Source of the DNA: Ferroplasma acidiphilum
Lineage (GTDB): Archaea > Thermoplasmatota > Thermoplasmata > Thermoplasmatales > Thermoplasmataceae
NCBI RefSeq assembly: GCF_002078355.1
Contig: NZ_CP015363.1
Location: forward strand, 1,116,001 to 1,180,000
Length of the DNA: 64,000 nt
Reading direction: 5' to 3'
The position numbers and the translations under genes are program-made. Positions 4,525 to 47,216 of this stretch are shown here, piece by piece (position 1 is the stretch's first letter; each line of letters opens with the position of its first letter). The notes under the pieces are model-generated. The model saw nothing but the letters and a program-made list of their open reading frames with translations, was not told the DNA's origin and ran no database searches.

Positions 4525-4947
4525 ATGAATAATTATAAAAAATTTGAAATAGATTTTATTAATGCCTGGAATTCACATAATATTTTTGAATTACTAAAAT
4601 ATTATGATGATGATATGTTATATATACATCCAGGAGAAGAACCAAAAATTATAAGGAAAAAAGGTGATTTCGAAGTTTATTTAAAAAAATTTTTTGAGAC
4701 ATTTCCTGATTATACTTTTACATTAATAAACGTTGCATGGAATAATAATGTAGGATTTGGCGAATGGCTCGGAAAAGCCACTTTTAACGGTTTAAGATAC
4801 AACTTAAAAATTAGTAATAAACCTTTTGAGATTTACGGTGTGGATGTTTTGGTTTTAAATAAATCGCACACATGTATAAAGGAAGAACATGTTTATTTTG
4901 ATGTTTTATCTGTACTTAAAGCAGTTGGAATAAATATATTTAAGTGA
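4525..4947 (+). CDS. SnoaL/NTF2-like domain protein
   Basis: A 140-residue small alpha/beta protein of the SnoaL-like NTF2 superfamily. The N-terminal helix FEIDFINAWNSHNIFELLKYYDDDMLYIHPG and the later strands are typical. Members include polyketide cyclases, ketosteroid-isomerase-like enzymes and non-catalytic binding domains; no specific activity can be assigned. It ends 3 bp before the MFS gene and is almost certainly co-transcribed with it, so it may modify or bind the transported compound. Codon use is strikingly AT-rich compared with genes right of 10 kb, suggesting acquisition by transfer. Confidence 0.7.
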   Translation: MNNYKKFEIDFINAWNSHNIFELLKYYDDDMLYIHPGEEPKIIRKKGDFEVYLKKFFETFPDYTFTLINVAWNNNVGFGEWLGKATFNGLRYNLKISNKPFEIYGVDVLVLNKSHTCIKEEHVYFDVLSVLKAVGINIFK

Positions 4948-4950
4948 AAA

Positions 4951-6150
4951 ATGAATAAAAAAATAGTATTTACATCATTGCCTGGATTTACAGCAGCGTT
5001 AGAAGCAACAATGATTCTACTTGCTATACCTGAAATATCAAAGGAATTCAGCATATCATATTCAGAATCGACATTATTAATAATAATATTTGTAATAACA
5101 GAAACATTGCTTGTTATTCCTTTTTCATTAATAGCAGATAAAAAGGGAATAAAAAAGGTAATGATAACCGGTTCATTTATAATGCTAATAGCATCAATCT
5201 TGATTTTTATTTCAAATAATTTTATTGTAATGCTTTTATTAAGGGCAATTCAGGGCATTGGAGGATCAATGGTCATATTAACATCATTATCATATGCATC
5301 ATTAATAAGCTCTGATATAAATAGAGGTAAATCAATAGGGTTAAACCATACAATAATAAGCTTAGGCTATGTTATAGGTCTTCCATTGGGCGGTTTAATG
5401 GCATCAATAAATTATAAGTACCTATTTTTATTTACAGCATTTTTATCATTATTATCAATTATATTAATAATAAATATAGATGAAATAAAAGGAAAATCAG
5501 AAATAGGAAAATCATCATTTTATATTACATTATTATTCTCCGGATTAATATTATCGATATATTATATTCCATTTATAATTATTGCAATAATAGGTTTAGT
5601 ATTATCATTTAGAATTAAATTAAGCAAAGAATTTTCATTATCATCATTTTCAGGATTTTTACATTCTATAACAAGAAATATGCTTGCAGCATACTTTGTA
5701 TTTTTATTGTATTCATTGAAATACAGTCCTTTAATTGTCGGTTTATTGGTTTTAATATATCCATTATTCTTTACATTTACATCATTTATTTCAGGAAAAT
5801 TGCATGATAAATACGGATTAAAAATAGCATCCCTTGGATTTTTATCAATGAGTGTGTTTTCATTGTTATTATTCTTTAATTTTCTATTTCCTGAAGTATT
5901 TTTAGGTTCATCTACAGGAGTTGCAACAACATCAAATACAGCATATACAATGAATTCATTAAATAAAAATGATAGGATAACAGGTTCAGGAATAAGGTCA
6001 TTGCAGGGAATAGTAACAAATGCAATCGGTCTTGGAATAGCCTCAAAATTACTGTTAAATTTGAATTATGTTATATTAATAATAATTATTTTCAATTTAA
6101 CAGCATTATCAATTACATTGATTCTATATAAAAATAAACTAAAATTATAG
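4951..6150 (+). CDS. MFS transporter; stop codon supplied by an IS element
   Basis: A 399-residue major facilitator with about 12 hydrophobic helices. The motif-A loop after helix 2 reads ADKKGIKKVMITG and a helix-4 RAIQGIGGSM stretch matches drug/proton antiporters, so efflux is the best guess. Leucine is mostly encoded by TTA, unlike the genes right of 10 kb. The present TAG stop at 6148-6150 consists of the first three bases of the IS5-type element. Removing the element and one target copy gives the same final residues followed by TAA, so the insertion did not change the protein. Confidence 0.88.
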   Translation: MNKKIVFTSLPGFTAALEATMILLAIPEISKEFSISYSESTLLIIIFVITETLLVIPFSLIADKKGIKKVMITGSFIMLIASILIFISNNFIVMLLLRAIQGIGGSMVILTSLSYASLISSDINRGKSIGLNHTIISLGYVIGLPLGGLMASINYKYLFLFTAFLSLLSIILIINIDEIKGKSEIGKSSFYITLLFSGLILSIYYIPFIIIAIIGLVLSFRIKLSKEFSLSSFSGFLHSITRNMLAAYFVFLLYSLKYSPLIVGLLVLIYPLFFTFTSFISGKLHDKYGLKIASLGFLSMSVFSLLLFFNFLFPEVFLGSSTGVATTSNTAYTMNSLNKNDRITGSGIRSLQGIVTNAIGLGIASKLLLNLNYVILIIIIFNLTALSITLILYKNKLKL

Positions 6151-6216
6151 TGTGTTGCATAATTCATTTCAATTTAATAATTATTCCATAATAAATTTAA
6201 AACTTAAAAGGAAAAC

Positions 6217-6240
6217 CCCCTATATAGTGAAATATAGGGG
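6217..6240 (+). promoter_or_regulatory. Hairpin preceding the copy A transposase
   Basis: CCCCTATAT (6217-6225) and ATATAGGGG (6232-6240) form a perfect 9-bp stem with a 6-base loop. The 3' arm runs into GGGGTGAT, the probable ribosome-binding site for the TTG start at 6250, so RNA folding would hide it. The hairpin is conserved in copy B. Confidence 0.6.
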
Positions 6241-6249
6241 TGATTTGCT

Positions 6250-7176
6250 TTGACTCCACAAATCAATAATAAAATAAATAGAAGTATAAAAAGGTACTGG
6301 ATTGGATCAAACAGGAGATGGGAAAAGTATAATGAATCACTTGCAGATAGAATAGAATACCTTGCAGATCTATCATTCATAAGGGATTATGATTCTCTAT
6401 TGGAGGAAAATAATAATGGTAAAATAGGACATCCATACAAAGTACCCGATGCATTGATAATGTATTTAGCTAGATTAAGATCTATATTCAATGTTCCATT
6501 CAGGTCACTTGAAGGCATGTTAAGGTCCTTAGCAATTATAGCTAATATAAAATCAATATCATATAGTGAAATATTCAGGAGGATAAGGAGAATTAAGCCA
6601 GATCTGAATAGCAATATTAACAGTAAGCTGGATTGCATTATAGATTCTACTGGCTCTAAGATAACAATAAGGGGAGACTATTTAAGGCATAAATGGCATA
6701 GGAAAAGGAATGGATGGCTCAAATTACATGTAATAATATCATTAAAAGATGTTACTGTATTATCATTCACAATTACAGATGAGCATACACATGATTCTAA
6801 AGCTGCTAGAAAACTATTGAGTAAAATGAAAAATAATATTCTAAGAATATTTGGAGATAGGGGATATGATTCAAAGTATATTTACAATATGTTCGGATAT
6901 AATGCAATAATACCTCCCAGGAAAAATGCTTCTACCAAATCCAGAGGTTCATCCACAAGGGCCAGGATTGTAAGATATATTAAAAAGAATTCTATGGAAC
7001 AGTTGAAAGAGAACAATAGCTATGGCAAAAGGTGGCTCGTGGAAATATATTTTTCAGGATTAAAAAGAGTAATGTCAGAGGTAATTAAAGCTAAGAAAAT
7101 AGAGTATATTGTACAGGAATTAGCTCTTAAGGTAGTTAATTACAATATTATGAGGGGGATGACACATGTCTATTAA
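6250..7176 (+). CDS. IS5-family transposase (copy A)
   Basis: A 308-residue DDE transposase. The catalytic triad is visible as IIDSTG (first Asp), FGDRGYDS (second Asp) and VEIYFSGLKR (Glu). The start is TTG (TTGACTCCACAA) preceded at short distance by GGGGTGAT, a strong ribosome-binding site; no ATG lies near. The frame is intact and the protein is about 90 percent or more identical by eye to the copy at 23894-24820, so both may still be active. The transposase lies on the same strand as the MFS gene it follows. Confidence 0.93.
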   Translation: MTPQINNKINRSIKRYWIGSNRRWEKYNESLADRIEYLADLSFIRDYDSLLEENNNGKIGHPYKVPDALIMYLARLRSIFNVPFRSLEGMLRSLAIIANIKSISYSEIFRRIRRIKPDLNSNINSKLDCIIDSTGSKITIRGDYLRHKWHRKRNGWLKLHVIISLKDVTVLSFTITDEHTHDSKAARKLLSKMKNNILRIFGDRGYDSKYIYNMFGYNAIIPPRKNASTKSRGSSTRARIVRYIKKNSMEQLKENNSYGKRWLVEIYFSGLKRVMSEVIKAKKIEYIVQELALKVVNYNIMRGMTHVY

Positions 7177-7197
7177 TTATACAACACACTACTAAAA

Positions 7198-7808
7198 TTA
7201 TAATTTTCTTATAACCCTTTTTCCTGATATCTTATATTTATTCTTTAATATTAAATTTATTGAGAAAACCAATGATTTATGCTCTTCTTCATGTATTTTT
7301 TCCTCTAATGTTTCCGGTGTTTCGTAATCATCTACACTTACAATTCTCTGGTCTATAATAGGCCCATTGTCCACATCATCTGTTGCAAAATGTATTGTAC
7401 ACCCTGAAAACCTTGCGCCTGAATTTATAACCGCTTCGTGCACCTTTTTCCGTAATATCCTTTGCCACCAAAAGCAGGCAATAATGAAGGATGAATATTT
7501 ATTATTTTGTATAAAAATTTGTTTATAATAAAATCGGGAAGTATTTTCATATAGCCATCTAAAACTATTAAATCAGGATTATCTCCTGATATTATTTCGT
7601 ATATTGTTTTATTGTAATCATTATTTTTTGTATCGATTAATACAGGCAATATTCCATTGTCCCTAGCTATTTGCATTACATTTGCCCTTTTATTGTTGCA
7701 TATTAATTTAGTTATTTTCGCATCCTCTATTACATTGTTATCAATTGCATCTATTATTGCCTGAAAGTTTGTTCCATTTCCTGAAGCAAGAACCAAAATT
7801 TTTTTCAT
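7198..7808 (-). pseudogene. purN: Phosphoribosylglycinamide formyltransferase with a frameshift
   Basis: PurN transfers a formyl group from 10-formyl-THF to GAR in purine synthesis. The N-terminal part (from MKKILVLASGNGTNFQAII) reaches NIHPSLLPAFGGKGYYGK and then leaves frame. The rest (VHEAVINSGARFSGCTIHFATDDVDNGPII...) continues in the -1 frame to the stop at 7198-7200. The shift lies in GGAAAAAGGTG (five A, complement of 7445-7449); six A would give an intact protein of about 203 residues. A slip of AAA back by one base would read AAA AAG GTG and rescue the protein. Both halves retain conserved residues, so the lesion is recent, a sequencing error, or recoded. The 3' stop overlaps the IS target duplication. 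Confidence 0.85.
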
Positions 7809-7861
7809 ATAAAGTTATTACAATATTTTAATTAAACTTTTTATAAAAATTATTTAAATTA

Positions 7862-8548
7862 TTAAATGCTATCTACAATAATTTTAAACAATATTTCTTC
7901 CTTTTCTCTTATTTCTTCTAAACTTAAGGATTCCCCTGTAATTAAATTTGAATATACCGTAAGAACTGATAAAGCTTTAAAATTATATAATTTAGAATTT
8001 AAATAAAGAGCAGATCCTTCCATATCCAAATTATCTATGCCTAATTTATTTAATTTATCTATGAATTCATTTGTCCTTACTTTCTGCGAATCAGTAGTAA
8101 AAGCATCTGTAATATAATGTTCATAATCTTTAAGATTCAAATCAAATTTTTTTAATAAATCATAATCAGCAGATAATGATATAGATAAATTGTCCTTAAT
8201 TTCTTCGTTGAATAATCCGCCATTATTATGCGAATATGATATTGGCATTACATATGAACCGGGTTTAATATTCTTATTTATGGATGCTGTCGAACCGAAT
8301 CTTATAATATTTTTTGCCCCTAATTTATAAAGCTCTAAAGTATCCAGTGCAAGCGAAGTATTTCCTATTCCGCTCCATGATAATGTTAGTCTTTTATTTT
8401 CATAAAAACCTGTATATGTATAATATCCCATAAAATCATTAACAAGCTTTATATCGCTTAATTTATTTTTAACCATATTAAAACGATCTACATTTGCTAC
8501 TACTAATGCATTTCCTGCAATATCTCCTTTTTTAGATTTAAAAACCAT
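7862..8548 (-). CDS. Purine-nucleoside/uridine phosphorylase family protein
   Basis: A 228-residue member of the PNP_UDP_1 family, which cleaves nucleosides with phosphate to free base and ribose-1-phosphate. WSGIGNTS, RFGSTASINKNIKPGSYV and NLDMEGSALY correspond to the phosphate and nucleoside pockets; the Met-Glu pair of the last contacts ribose. Length fits the hexameric branch. Purine or uridine preference cannot be told. It is the gene upstream of purN on the same strand, about 50 bp away, so the pair may be a salvage/synthesis operon. Base composition is AT-rich like the rest of this block. Confidence 0.85.
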   Translation of the reverse strand: MVFKSKKGDIAGNALVVANVDRFNMVKNKLSDIKLVNDFMGYYTYTGFYENKRLTLSWSGIGNTSLALDTLELYKLGAKNIIRFGSTASINKNIKPGSYVMPISYSHNNGGLFNEEIKDNLSISLSADYDLLKKFDLNLKDYEHYITDAFTTDSQKVRTNEFIDKLNKLGIDNLDMEGSALYLNSKLYNFKALSVLTVYSNLITGESLSLEEIREKEEILFKIIVDSI

Positions 8549-8591
8549 ATTTTACTATTAAATATTAATATTTAGATAGTGTAAGTAATTG

Positions 8592-9811
8592 TCTGTAAAT
8601 TATAAATGGCCTTGCACAATTTAGATTGGGGTGAAAAAAGTGCAAGACCAATTAAAAGAAGTAAAAGAAAAGATAAAAAGTTATGGATTGAACAGGGAGA
8701 ATATGAGAGATTTAAAGAAATGGATTCTTAATGATCTCATGAATGAGGAAGCAGAGGAACAGATCAATGCATCCAGGTATGAGAGAAATAGCAATAGAAA
8801 GGATTACAGGAATGGGTATAAGCAGAGATCATTGTTAACAACAGATGGAAAGGTTATATTAGATAAGCCACAGTTCAGGGAAACATCTTTCCATACAGCT
8901 GTATTTGACAATTATTCCAGAGTAGAAAAATCAGTAGAATCCATAATACTGGAATCATACCTGAGCGGTGTATCTACAAGAAGCGTTAATAAGGTAATAA
9001 AATCCTTAGGCATAGAAGTATCACCATCCTATGTGTCATCATTATCCTCAAGGCTTGATAAAACAGTAAATGAATTCCTTGAAAGGAAGATTGATGGAGA
9101 ATATAAATTCATATATATAGATGGAACATACCTTAAAATAAGAAATAATGGGAGGTACAGGAATAAGGCAATATACATCTGTGTAGGGATTAACAGTGAT
9201 GGATATCGTGAAGTTCTTGGAGCAAGAATATATGACTCTGAAACTGAAATAGAGTGGGAACTATTCTTTGATGATCTTAAGGATAGGGGATTGAATGGTG
9301 TTGAGATGGTAATATCAGATGGCAATAAGGGTATTAGGGAAGCAGTTAAACAGTCATTCCCTGGATCATCTTGGCAATACTGCCATGTCCATTTTATGAG
9401 GAACTTAAGGAAATCAACGGGAAAACAGCAATGGAAGTTTCTATCATTGCTTATAAAACAGGCACTGGATAATCCTGATATACTCCCTTTACTGCAGGAT
9501 AAGCTTTTTGATAGAGGATTAGATAAATGTTCTACTATGTTCGATAAATACTATGATTCATTATACAACTACAGATCATTCAATACAAATATACAGGGAT
9601 TAAGGAGATTAAGAGTATCCAATACTATAGAACGTTTAAATGCAGAAATAAAAAGAAGGACTAAGAAAATAGGTGCATTTCCATCTGATGATTCTGCAAT
9701 GAGATTGGCAGGCTCAATAATGATAGACATAAATGAGGAGTATGTAACAGGAAGAAAATATATAAATATGGAGGAAATCAACAGTCAGTAAGGCTATTTA
9801 CAATTTACAGA
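8592..9811 (+). mobile_element. IS256-family insertion sequence (about 1.22 kb)
   Basis: Imperfect terminal repeats are visible: TCTGTAAATTATAAATGGCC at 8592-8611, and reading inward from the right end (9811-9792) TCTGTAAATTGTAAATAGCC, 18 of 20 matching. They enclose one intact transposase. I could not find the 8-9 bp target duplication expected of the family, so the insertion may be old or its flanks rearranged. Exact ends are uncertain by one or two bases. Confidence 0.82.
8640..9791 (+). CDS. IS256-family (mutator-type) transposase
   Basis: About 383 residues. The DDE domain is recognisable from FIYIDGTYLKI (first Asp), EMVISDGNKGIREAV (second Asp), WQYCHVHFMRNL (the C-x2-H signature of mutator transposases) and RLRVSNTIERLNAEIKRR near the C-terminus (Glu). 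GGGGTGA at about 8630 sits 6-8 bases before GTG 8640; an in-frame GTG at 8631 would add MKK but lacks such a site. The frame is intact. The element lies upstream of the divergent nucleoside phosphorylase gene. Confidence 0.9.
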   Translation: MQDQLKEVKEKIKSYGLNRENMRDLKKWILNDLMNEEAEEQINASRYERNSNRKDYRNGYKQRSLLTTDGKVILDKPQFRETSFHTAVFDNYSRVEKSVESIILESYLSGVSTRSVNKVIKSLGIEVSPSYVSSLSSRLDKTVNEFLERKIDGEYKFIYIDGTYLKIRNNGRYRNKAIYICVGINSDGYREVLGARIYDSETEIEWELFFDDLKDRGLNGVEMVISDGNKGIREAVKQSFPGSSWQYCHVHFMRNLRKSTGKQQWKFLSLLIKQALDNPDILPLLQDKLFDRGLDKCSTMFDKYYDSLYNYRSFNTNIQGLRRLRVSNTIERLNAEIKRRTKKIGAFPSDDSAMRLAGSIMIDINEEYVTGRKYINMEEINSQ

Positions 9812-9877
9812 AAATAATGTACATTATCAATATTTAAATTATAAGCTATAAATTTTACATAAAAATAAATTAAAAAT

Positions 9878-10075
9878 ATGCCCTATATAGATTATAGCAG
9901 GAAATCTGATAGCATAGAGGACATAATTAAAAATGAGTGCCCTGTATACTCCGGGGATATTATCAGGCGCAGGTTAGCTCTCAGTATTTACTCCACTGAT
10001 TCCGGGAAATCAATGGAGAATAGTATTAATTCGTTAATGGAGAGTTATTATGAAAATACATATACTGGCAAATGA
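9878..10075 (+). CDS. Small hypothetical protein ahead of the lipid kinase
   Basis: A 65-residue reading frame (MPYIDYSRKSDSIEDI...) that I do not recognise. In favour of a real gene: a TATA-like TATAAATTTT at 9847-9856 lies about 26 bp before the ATG, fitting a leaderless mRNA, and the frame overlaps the start of the downstream lipid kinase by 26 bp as in translationally coupled genes. The composition (mixed acidic/basic residues, Ser and Tyr) is protein-like, with no membrane segment. It could alternatively be the transcribed leader of the kinase gene. Confidence 0.5.
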   Translation: MPYIDYSRKSDSIEDIIKNECPVYSGDIIRRRLALSIYSTDSGKSMENSINSLMESYYENTYTGK

Positions 10076-10943
10076 ACATGCAGGTTCTGGAAATGCCTTA
10101 AAGATTATGGAAGAAATAAAATCCATATTAAATCGGTATGAACTGACTTCCTCTTTCACGGAAAAAGATCCTGCAAATTTTATCCAGTTCATGGACGAAA
10201 ATCCAGATATAAAATATCTTATTGCTATCGATGGTGATGGCACTGTAAATTACGCAATACAGGCACTTGCGGGAAAGGATACCATACTCATTCCCGTTCC
10301 AGCAGGTACCGGATCAGACCTGACAAGGACAATAGGCCGTGTTACTGTAAAAGAAATCCCTGAGATTATTTCTGGTGGGAGATTCAGAAAAGTTGATCTC
10401 GGCCTTGTGCACATAAACGGGAAATCCCGGTATTTTATGAATATCATGGAAACAGGCCTTGGTGGGAATGTAATGGTGAGGGTAAATTCCACTGAGCATC
10501 GAACAGGATCCACATTCGTGAAGGCTATCCTTTACTATATTTTAACGATGAAAAGTATTGGGGCTGACATAAAAATCGGGGATGAAATTATACATGAGCA
10601 GATAATAGATATTATCATAGCAAATGGGCAGTATTTTGGCAAGGGCATGCATGCATCCCCCGATTCTAAAATTGATGATGGATTCCTGGATCTGCATCTG
10701 ATAAAATACATGCCAAGGTCACGAATTTTATTTAAACTCCCATCTCTCCGTTCAGGCGCCTACATCTCTGACAAATATGTAATTAACAAAAAAATAAAAG
10801 AAGCAAGCGTGAATTGCAAAAGCATTGTTGAAATAGATGGAGAAATAATAATTGCTGATTCCTTCTCCGTGGAAGTTCTACCGGGTATAATAAATATTTT
10901 TGAGTTGCCCGGAGAGGATAATAGTGCCATAAATAAAATTTAA
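10050..10943 (+). CDS. Diacylglycerol kinase-family lipid kinase
   Basis: A 297-residue protein of the diacylglycerol kinase catalytic-domain family (YegS/BmrU type), which phosphorylates lipid-like alcohols with ATP. The ATP-binding GDGT motif is at residues 62-65 (IDGDGTVNYAIQAL), followed by PAGTGSDLTRTIG and, further on, IDGE. GGAGAGTTATT precedes the ATG. In archaea such kinases may phosphorylate archaeol precursors or be sphingosine/diacylglycerol kinase homologues; the substrate is unknown. It appears coupled to the small upstream frame. Confidence 0.88.
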   Translation: MKIHILANEHAGSGNALKIMEEIKSILNRYELTSSFTEKDPANFIQFMDENPDIKYLIAIDGDGTVNYAIQALAGKDTILIPVPAGTGSDLTRTIGRVTVKEIPEIISGGRFRKVDLGLVHINGKSRYFMNIMETGLGGNVMVRVNSTEHRTGSTFVKAILYYILTMKSIGADIKIGDEIIHEQIIDIIIANGQYFGKGMHASPDSKIDDGFLDLHLIKYMPRSRILFKLPSLRSGAYISDKYVINKKIKEASVNCKSIVEIDGEIIIADSFSVEVLPGIINIFELPGEDNSAINKI

Positions 10944-10999
10944 ATAGAAAATGAGACTGATAACTATACGTATAATTCCAAAAAAAGGTGATGGTTGAA

Positions 11000-11761
11000 A
11001 TGTATGATATAAAAGATAAAGTATGTATAGTAACAGGGTCAGGAAGGGGAATAGGAAAAGCTATTGCGATTAAACTTGCACAGGCAGGCGGGAAGATTGT
11101 GGTTAACGTTAGAACCCATGAGGATGAAGGCATGCAGACGCTGGAGGAGGTAAATAAGGCATCGTCCGGAATTCTTTCAATGGCGGATGTTTCAACAGAA
11201 GAAGGCAGGAAAAAATTATTCAGGGATGCTATAGAAAAACTTGGAAAACCTGACATACTTATCAACAACGCAGGAGTTGGTATTCTCGAGCCATTCGAAA
11301 ACATAGATGAAAAACACATGCAATTGATGTTTAACACTAACCTCTATTCTCCAGTATGGCTTTCCAGAGAGTTCGTTAGCAAGTACGACAATGGCGTTAT
11401 TATAAATATGGCCTCACTGGCAGGCATATCCCCTTTCCCCGGGCTATCTGTATATGGAATGACCAAGGCAGCGCTTATTAGCATGACTAAATATCTTTCC
11501 CTGGAAGCTGCCGGCCACCATATCCGTGTAAATGCTGTTGCACCGGGAGTAGTTAAAACCAGGATGGGCGACAGCCTCCTGAAAATTATGAATCTAGACG
11601 AGAAAAATTTTTCTAAGAAATTTACGCTTACGGGCAAACTCATAGACCCTGATGAAGTTGCAGATACGGTTCTTTATTTGATCAGGAACGAATCTATGAC
11701 TGGCCAGGTTATAACAATAGACTCTGGCGGAGAACAGATGGCAACGGATTATTTCAGATAA
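11000..11761 (+). CDS. Short-chain dehydrogenase/reductase
   Basis: A classical SDR of 253 residues. The cofactor motif TGSGRGIG is at residues 12-19, NNAG at 89-92, Ser at about 139 and the YxxxK pair Y152/K156. The basic residue after the second strand (VRTH) favours NADP(H). Candidates are a 3-oxoacyl reductase or a sugar dehydrogenase such as glucose 1-dehydrogenase; the choice is open. AGGTGAT lies 7 bases before ATG 11000; in-frame GTG 10988 and ATG 10991 are alternatives. A perfect palindrome TATACGTATA is at 10965-10974. Confidence 0.88.
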   Translation: MYDIKDKVCIVTGSGRGIGKAIAIKLAQAGGKIVVNVRTHEDEGMQTLEEVNKASSGILSMADVSTEEGRKKLFRDAIEKLGKPDILINNAGVGILEPFENIDEKHMQLMFNTNLYSPVWLSREFVSKYDNGVIINMASLAGISPFPGLSVYGMTKAALISMTKYLSLEAAGHHIRVNAVAPGVVKTRMGDSLLKIMNLDEKNFSKKFTLTGKLIDPDEVADTVLYLIRNESMTGQVITIDSGGEQMATDYFR

Positions 11762-11886
11762 AGGGTTAATGTACCCATAATAATATTAATATACAGATAC
11801 ATAATATTTTTTTATGTGGGAATTTATAAACGTAAAGCCGGAAAAAATCTATAATAATAACAACAATTCAGAAAGAGGCGATTTAT

Positions 11887-45672: not shown

Positions 45673-46140
45673 ATGAAAGTTGCAGTTATAATGGGAAGCA
45701 GGTCAGATTTTCCCGTAATGCAGGACGCAGTTAATGAGTTAAAAAATTTTGGCATTGAAGTGGAATACAGGATTGTATCCGCACACAGGACGCCGGAATT
45801 TATGCTGGAATATGCCAGTAATGCCATAAATAATCATATAGAAGTTATTATAGCTGGAGCAGGCGGAGCTGCACATTTGCCAGGCATGGTGGCTTCAATG
45901 ACAACGTTGCCAGTTATCGGGGTTCCGGTGCAATCAAAGGCATTGAACGGCATTGATTCTCTTCTCTCAATAGTGCAGATGCCCCCAGGAGTTCCTGTAG
46001 CTACAGTGTCCATCAATGGAGCGAGGAACGCTGCCCTCCTTGCAGTAAGGATTCTTTCAATAAAATATCCTAAAATAAAGGAAATGCTGCAGGCATTTAT
46101 AGACAACCAGCGGGATACAGTTTTAGGTGATAAACTATGA
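45673..46140 (+). CDS. purE: N5-carboxyaminoimidazole ribonucleotide mutase
   Basis: Converts N5-CAIR to CAIR in purine synthesis. 155 residues with [28 protein letters not shown] and [27 protein letters not shown], all diagnostic of class I PurE. It works with PurK; the stop and next start share ATGA. Confidence 0.95.
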
Positions 46141-47216
46141 AAGTTGGAATTATTGGTTCCGGGCAACTCGGATATATGATGATAAACACTATGAGAAGAT
46201 ACCCCATAGAATTTTATGTGATAGATGATAATAAAGGCCCATCCGCTTTTATTGCCGATAAATTCTTTGATGTTTCACAGTATAAAGAATTTGTTGATTC
46301 CTGTGATTATGTAACCTACGAATTCGAACATATCGATAAAAATATACTGGAATATGCAGATAGCAAAGGAAAATTAAGGCCTTCTATTAAGGCGGTTGAG
46401 CTTAAACAGGACAGGTCACTTGAAAAGAAATACCTGAAAGATCATGGATTTCCCATAGCAGATTACGAATATGCAGAAACTTACAGGGATGCGTTTAATA
46501 AGGCAAAAAATTTTGGCAAAGCGGTAATAAAAAGCTGCAAGGGTGGCTATGATGGGAAAAATCAGTATTTTATTGATAACAGTTCCAGATTTGAAGAACA
46601 TCCTGATATTCCGTACGTGGTGGAAAAATTTATTGATTATGAATATGAAGCTTCTATTATAGCGGTCCGGGATGCAAATGGCAAATTTTACCATTTTGAA
46701 CCATCATTTAATTACAACCAGAATGGAATACTAATTTACAATATCTCCCCCATAGGCAACACCATTGAGATGATCGATATTGCGAAAAAACTTATGGATT
46801 CCCTGGAATATATAGGTGTCATGGGAATAGAATATTACGTGGTGGATGGAAAAGTTATAATCAATGAGTACGCACCACGGGTTCATAACACAGGCCACCA
46901 TACTTTAACCGGCAGTTCTATTTCCCAGTTTGAAGAACATATACTGGCTGTTGCTGGAATGAATATAGTCCGGCCTGATCTGTTTGTGCCCTCCGGAATT
47001 GTAAACATTATAGGAACTGATATTAAAGAAAAGATAGGGCCGGTATTAAACCTCGGGAATACAAATATTTACTGGTACCATAAAAATGAGGTGCGGGGAA
47101 AGAGAAAAATGGGACATGTAAATGTATATGGCGAATCATACAATGCCGTTGAACAAAAAATAAGAGAAATAATAGAAATACTGTACGGAGATAGACTTGA
47201 AGATTTTATTCAATAA
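46137..47216 (+). CDS. purK: N5-carboxyaminoimidazole ribonucleotide synthase
   Basis: ATP-grasp enzyme that carboxylates AIR with bicarbonate. 359 residues. GSGQLGYMM at the N-terminus, [12 protein letters not shown] and [14 protein letters not shown] (ATP-grasp and substrate residues) are typical. It overlaps purE by four bases (ATGA) and must be translated from the same mRNA. Confidence 0.95.

Follow-up and report, generated by a model that had tools for sequence, protein, structure and literature searches.

A second purN copy with a broken reading frame in an AT-rich, IS-flanked segment of the Ferroplasma acidiphilum genome

Gene content of the locus

The stretch of F. acidiphilum DNA analysed here (64,000 nucleotides, hereafter the window) contains two minus-strand ORFs (Table 1) that match adjoining stretches of the PF00551 and TIGR00639 (PurN) profiles, which bears out the initial annotation of the pair as one split PurN gene, designated here purN2. 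In PF00551 the 5′ half covers positions 1–118 of 181 with 87.6 bits and the 3′ half positions 121–178 with 50.8 bits (cut-off 26.1 bits), and in TIGR00639 the corresponding values are positions 1–117 of 192 with 105.5 bits and positions 122–191 with 56.5 bits. Although the two halves together cover the length of this equivalog profile, no single purN2 protein exceeds its whole-protein cut-off of 150.1 bits, and as each half falls below that value, the locus as read is a broken purN relative and not a working PurN gene. The ORFs overlap next to five consecutive T of the plus strand (7445–7449), and their registers differ by one base at GGAAAAAGG, the five-A run indicated earlier. With 611 bases compared to 612 in the three closest genes, purN2 has its frame broken relative to the intact homologues, as is characteristic of a pseudogene formed by frameshift. 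The frame break is confirmed as real in the given sequence, being far beyond chance.

Conserved residues were said to be kept in both parts, and this is the case: the motif NxHPSLLP with its asparagine and histidine lies in the 5′ half, and DDVDNGP with its aspartate in the 3′ half. Aligned to E. coli chain 1c2t, the 5′ half spans positions 3–117, and residues 2–60 of the 3′ half span positions 121–179; N106, H108 and D144 are the residues which we take to be catalytic.

Table 1 Features of the purN2 locus (positions are those of the window)
Feature	Position	Strand	Description
SnoaL-like protein and MFS transporter	4525..6150	+	25% GC; probable remainder of the AT-rich segment
IS5-family element	6148..7191	+	Transposase 6250–7176; inverted ends 6148–6167 and 7172–7191
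3′ half of the second purN copy	7198..7443	-	81 aa from GTG; PurN profile positions 122–191
5′ half of the second purN copy	7425..7808	-	127 aa, ATG; first ~120 residues PurN, last few out of frame
Frame break	7445..7449	-	AAAAA in GGAAAAAGG; one base short compared to 10/10 intact relatives
Upstream segment, probable promoter	7809..7852	-	Resembles the purN upstream segment of G052, G026 and G060
Nucleoside phosphorylase, second, divergent (PNP_UDP_1 family)	7862..8548	-	Same strand as purN2; 26% GC
IS256-family transposase	8631..9791	+	Other side of the purN2–phosphorylase pair

The GC content is 27.3% in the 5′ half, 32.1% in the 3′ half, 26.2% in the phosphorylase gene and 25% in the MFS and SnoaL-like genes, compared with 36.2% in the window as a whole and 37.3% in purN1, the intact purN gene of this genome described below. 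The phosphorylase is 38% identical to the other copy in the genome (687912–688586 of the contig), and a few bases separate the end of the IS5-family element from the purN2 stop codon. The 12 bases ACTAAAATTATA are found on both sides of this element (6138–6149 and 7191–7202), adjoining its inverted ends; the pair was noticed by eye, is absent from the computed repeat listing and may be due to chance in AT-rich DNA. A contig binned with another Ferroplasma-like species (L044, G062:C104) is 99.8% identical to window positions 7835–11855 over 4021 bases and stops 27 bases short of the purN2 start, which suggests bin contamination as well as a variable site at this point.

The intact purN gene

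Searching the whole genome, a single contig of 1,826,943 bases, with PF00551 gave three matches, namely the two purN2 halves and one intact gene, purN1, located 550 kb from purN2 (G000:C1:1673121-1673660) and scoring 153.5 bits. purN1 also exceeds the TIGR00639 cut-off (173.2 vs. 150.1 bits). It adjoins a gene which we take to be LysE-like, as purN does in 10 out of 10 genomes of the Ferroplasma group examined, and is thus the canonical purN. With an intact PurN present in the same genome, GAR formylation is retained, so the concern of the initial annotation that one route of this reaction would be blocked proved to be a false alarm. The PurT-type second enzyme expected on the same grounds is not needed, and none scores at or above the TIGR01142 cut-off of 502.15 in the whole genome. 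The sole match to this profile (82.3 bits), considered as a PurT backup, is PurK at window positions 46137–47216, which is also the best ATP-grasp match in the genome. The suggestion to search the genome for purT or another purN was a sound one in that another, intact purN was found, but that purN2 is the extra copy and has a different ancestry had been missed.

Ancestry of purN2

At the DNA level purN2 is 83.1%, 82.7% and 81.7% identical to the purN genes of the Ferroplasma-like genomes G052, G026 and G060, respectively, vs. 72.7% for purN1 of its own genome. The protein tree, which comprises 29 rows (11 from the genus and 18 out of the 29 family loci L004–L032), groups purN2 with the purN of G026, G052 and G060 at a support of 100/100, as a sister to the group and not nested inside it; the fork uniting the three genomes without purN2 has a support of 91/14, weak by SH-aLRT. 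In the tree of the LysE-like gene, the genome carrying purN2 is placed with G064 and with Ferroplasma acidarmanus Fer1 (G009), apart from G026, G052 and G060. The bases just upstream of the purN2 start are like those of the same three genomes and unlike those of purN1. Judging from the tree, the composition and the context, purN2 was probably gained by lateral transfer together with the AT-rich segment. An old duplication with later losses is also possible, since purN2 is a sister to the three genes and not nested among them, and the 91/14 fork is weak.

Of the 61 genomes of the family, 53 have one PurN match and six have none, and a split match is found only in the genome described here; among the 53, the sole match in G007 covers profile positions 20–147 only. 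G060 has one match and, at a contig end (L055, G060:C13:2-133), part of another purN with different affinities, which scores 24.7 bits, below the cut-off; this bin too may therefore contain a strain variant or a second copy of purN. A search for a viral-contig copy of purN2 with one 20-base exact pattern gave 0 matches. No paper joining Ferroplasma with purN as whole words was found in the literature; the available part of the main text of PMC5473848 does not mention purN, purine or frameshift, nor does the available part of PMC12350378 mention purine, formyltransferase or pseudogene.

The purN2 site in strain Fer1

The genome of F. acidarmanus Fer1 (NC_021592.1), which belongs to the same species, is collinear with the window on either side of purN2. 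Window positions 7193–7925 are replaced there by about 1.2 kb containing a Transposase_mut protein (IS256-family transposase), and purN2 is absent. The Fer1 phosphorylase matches only residues 1–210 of 228, its C-terminal end being replaced beside the IS256-family transposase. A purN2 remnant was sought in the insert and rejected, the matches being short (11–32 bases) with E-values of 0.003 or weaker. The absence of purN2 would most simply be explained by a deletion at the IS256 insertion. A neighbouring IS5-family transposase of Fer1 is interrupted by about 290 bases, including an unrelated ORF of 73 aa (L043:6241-6535).

purN2 is dispensable in the sense that its function is covered by intact purN1 and that Fer1 has no purN2. 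The locus is a small, clear case of a spare housekeeping gene copy, probably transferred, of which there is no intact version in either strain of this archaeal species: it is frameshifted in one, and in the other an IS256-family transposase occupies the site where it is missing.

The lost base and the age of the break

The break was originally ascribed to an A missing from a run of six. The locus is indeed one base short at this site, but not one of the 10 intact genes in the genus has six A in a row at this position, and a six-A ancestral run was therefore rejected. In the three closest genes the codon assumed to be for lysine is one for arginine (AGA or AGG), so that it is unproven that the lost base was an A. 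Either the loss of G inside an arginine codon or the loss of A after a change from arginine to lysine would fit the purN2 sequence.

The decay was also described as recent, which agrees with the dN/dS values of about 0.1 in both halves and with the lack of a further stop in the own frame of either half. With G052 as the reference, the 5′ half has a dN/dS of 0.098 and the 3′ half one of 0.100; against G026, G052 and G060 taken together both halves range from 0.07 to 0.15, and these intact relatives range from 0.09 to 0.21 among themselves. Relaxed selection on purN2, which is not seen at these values, is not required of a young pseudogene, and its absence is expected if the break is recent. However, with no excess of amino-acid changes, an error in the sequence or a gene still in use would fit too, so either purN2 was under purifying selection until recently, or it is still used, or the break is erroneous.

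Explanations of the frame break

Taken together, purN2 is very likely a redundant second copy, recently inactivated, that came from a lineage related to G026, G052 and G060 in an AT-rich, IS-flanked segment; it is a case of ordinary gene decay. The gene and its upstream region would have arrived from this lineage as part of the segment, and purifying selection would have maintained purN2 until its frame was broken when one base was lost. Translation would now end a few codons past the break, leaving a 5′ product with neither the C-terminal part nor the catalytic aspartate, which should therefore be inactive; as far as can be judged from the conserved positions, neither half should be active alone. 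As canonical, intact purN1 would supply the enzyme, the loss of purN2 should cost little.

The alternative that survives best is a sequencing or assembly error, the real gene being an intact second purN. An isolated error at the break is possible but unlikely. The A run is short, both halves appear to be under full constraint and 454 reads (34x) were among the data for the F. acidiphilum Y genome, but according to the available text the Illumina coverage was deep too, at 639x and 233x (PMC5473848). In 55,081 bases aligned with Fer1, a comparison that does not take in purN2 because Fer1 lacks it, there are only two indels and none in ORFs, which speaks against the sequencing error listed among the causes in the initial annotation. 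Moreover, the 51 longer ORFs of the window contain 173 runs of five A and 92 of six to eight, and purN2 has longer A runs than the one at the break, one of seven and two of six A, which leave the frame whole.

A good deal less probable is programmed or adventitious −1 slippage, whether ribosomal or transcriptional, giving some full-length PurN2. At A-AAA-AGG the P-site lysine tRNA could re-pair one base back, and there is a real archaeal case, fucA1 of S. solfataricus with A-AAA-AAT (described in the available part of PMC8211752). Under the X-XXY-YYZ rule for slippery heptamers of −1 programmed frameshifting, given in the same text, the zero-frame heptamer A-AAA-AGG fails at the second codon, and the run has five A only. 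No stimulating structure was found 5–9 bases downstream of the slip site, the 101 nt downstream having a z-score of −0.43 in pseudoknot-free folding, with 57 of 200 shuffles being as good. AGG, the codon that follows, is used for arginine more often than any other (327 out of 678 in the ORFs of the window), so there is no hungry codon at the site. In all 10 relatives PurN is read in a single frame and the run is lacking, and the site is therefore not conserved. With the wrong heptamer, no stable structure, a common next codon and no conservation, the programmed −1 frameshifting proposed earlier is not supported at purN2 by these sequence features, although slippage at a low level would be compatible with the sequence. 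A combined version, in which the purN2–phosphorylase pair would be an AT-rich purine module mobile between Ferroplasma lineages and slippage at A-AAA-AGG would yield PurN2 at a low level, is more improbable still; if true, it would make the "pseudogene" a low-expression second enzyme. Least credible of all is a split PurN assembled from two separately translated fragments, for, although the GTG start of the second ORF lies just upstream of the stop of the first and coupled re-initiation is conceivable, adjoining split matches occur in no other genome of the 61 and the GTG is simply a codon for a valine that is conserved in the intact gene.

Comparison with known systems

Like PurN, the purN2 halves match adjoining parts of the TIGR00639 and PF00551 profiles, but unlike PurN they form no single ORF and neither exceeds the TIGR00639 cut-off. 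The canonical purN adjoins the LysE-like gene, whereas purN2 adjoins a phosphorylase gene. According to the available part of its description, fucA1 of S. solfataricus has the heptamer A-AAA-AAT, a putative stem-loop and rare codons, and its full-length product was tested (PMC8211752); purN2 resembles it in that its two ORFs, in −1 register, share an A-rich overlap, and differs from it in having A-AAA-AGG with neither a structure signal nor conservation. According to PMC8211752, frameshift pseudogenes at A/T-rich tracts were described in archaea by van Passel et al. in 2007, and purN2, with no notable difference from these, is like them in being a dispensable gene whose frame is broken within an A/T-rich tract.
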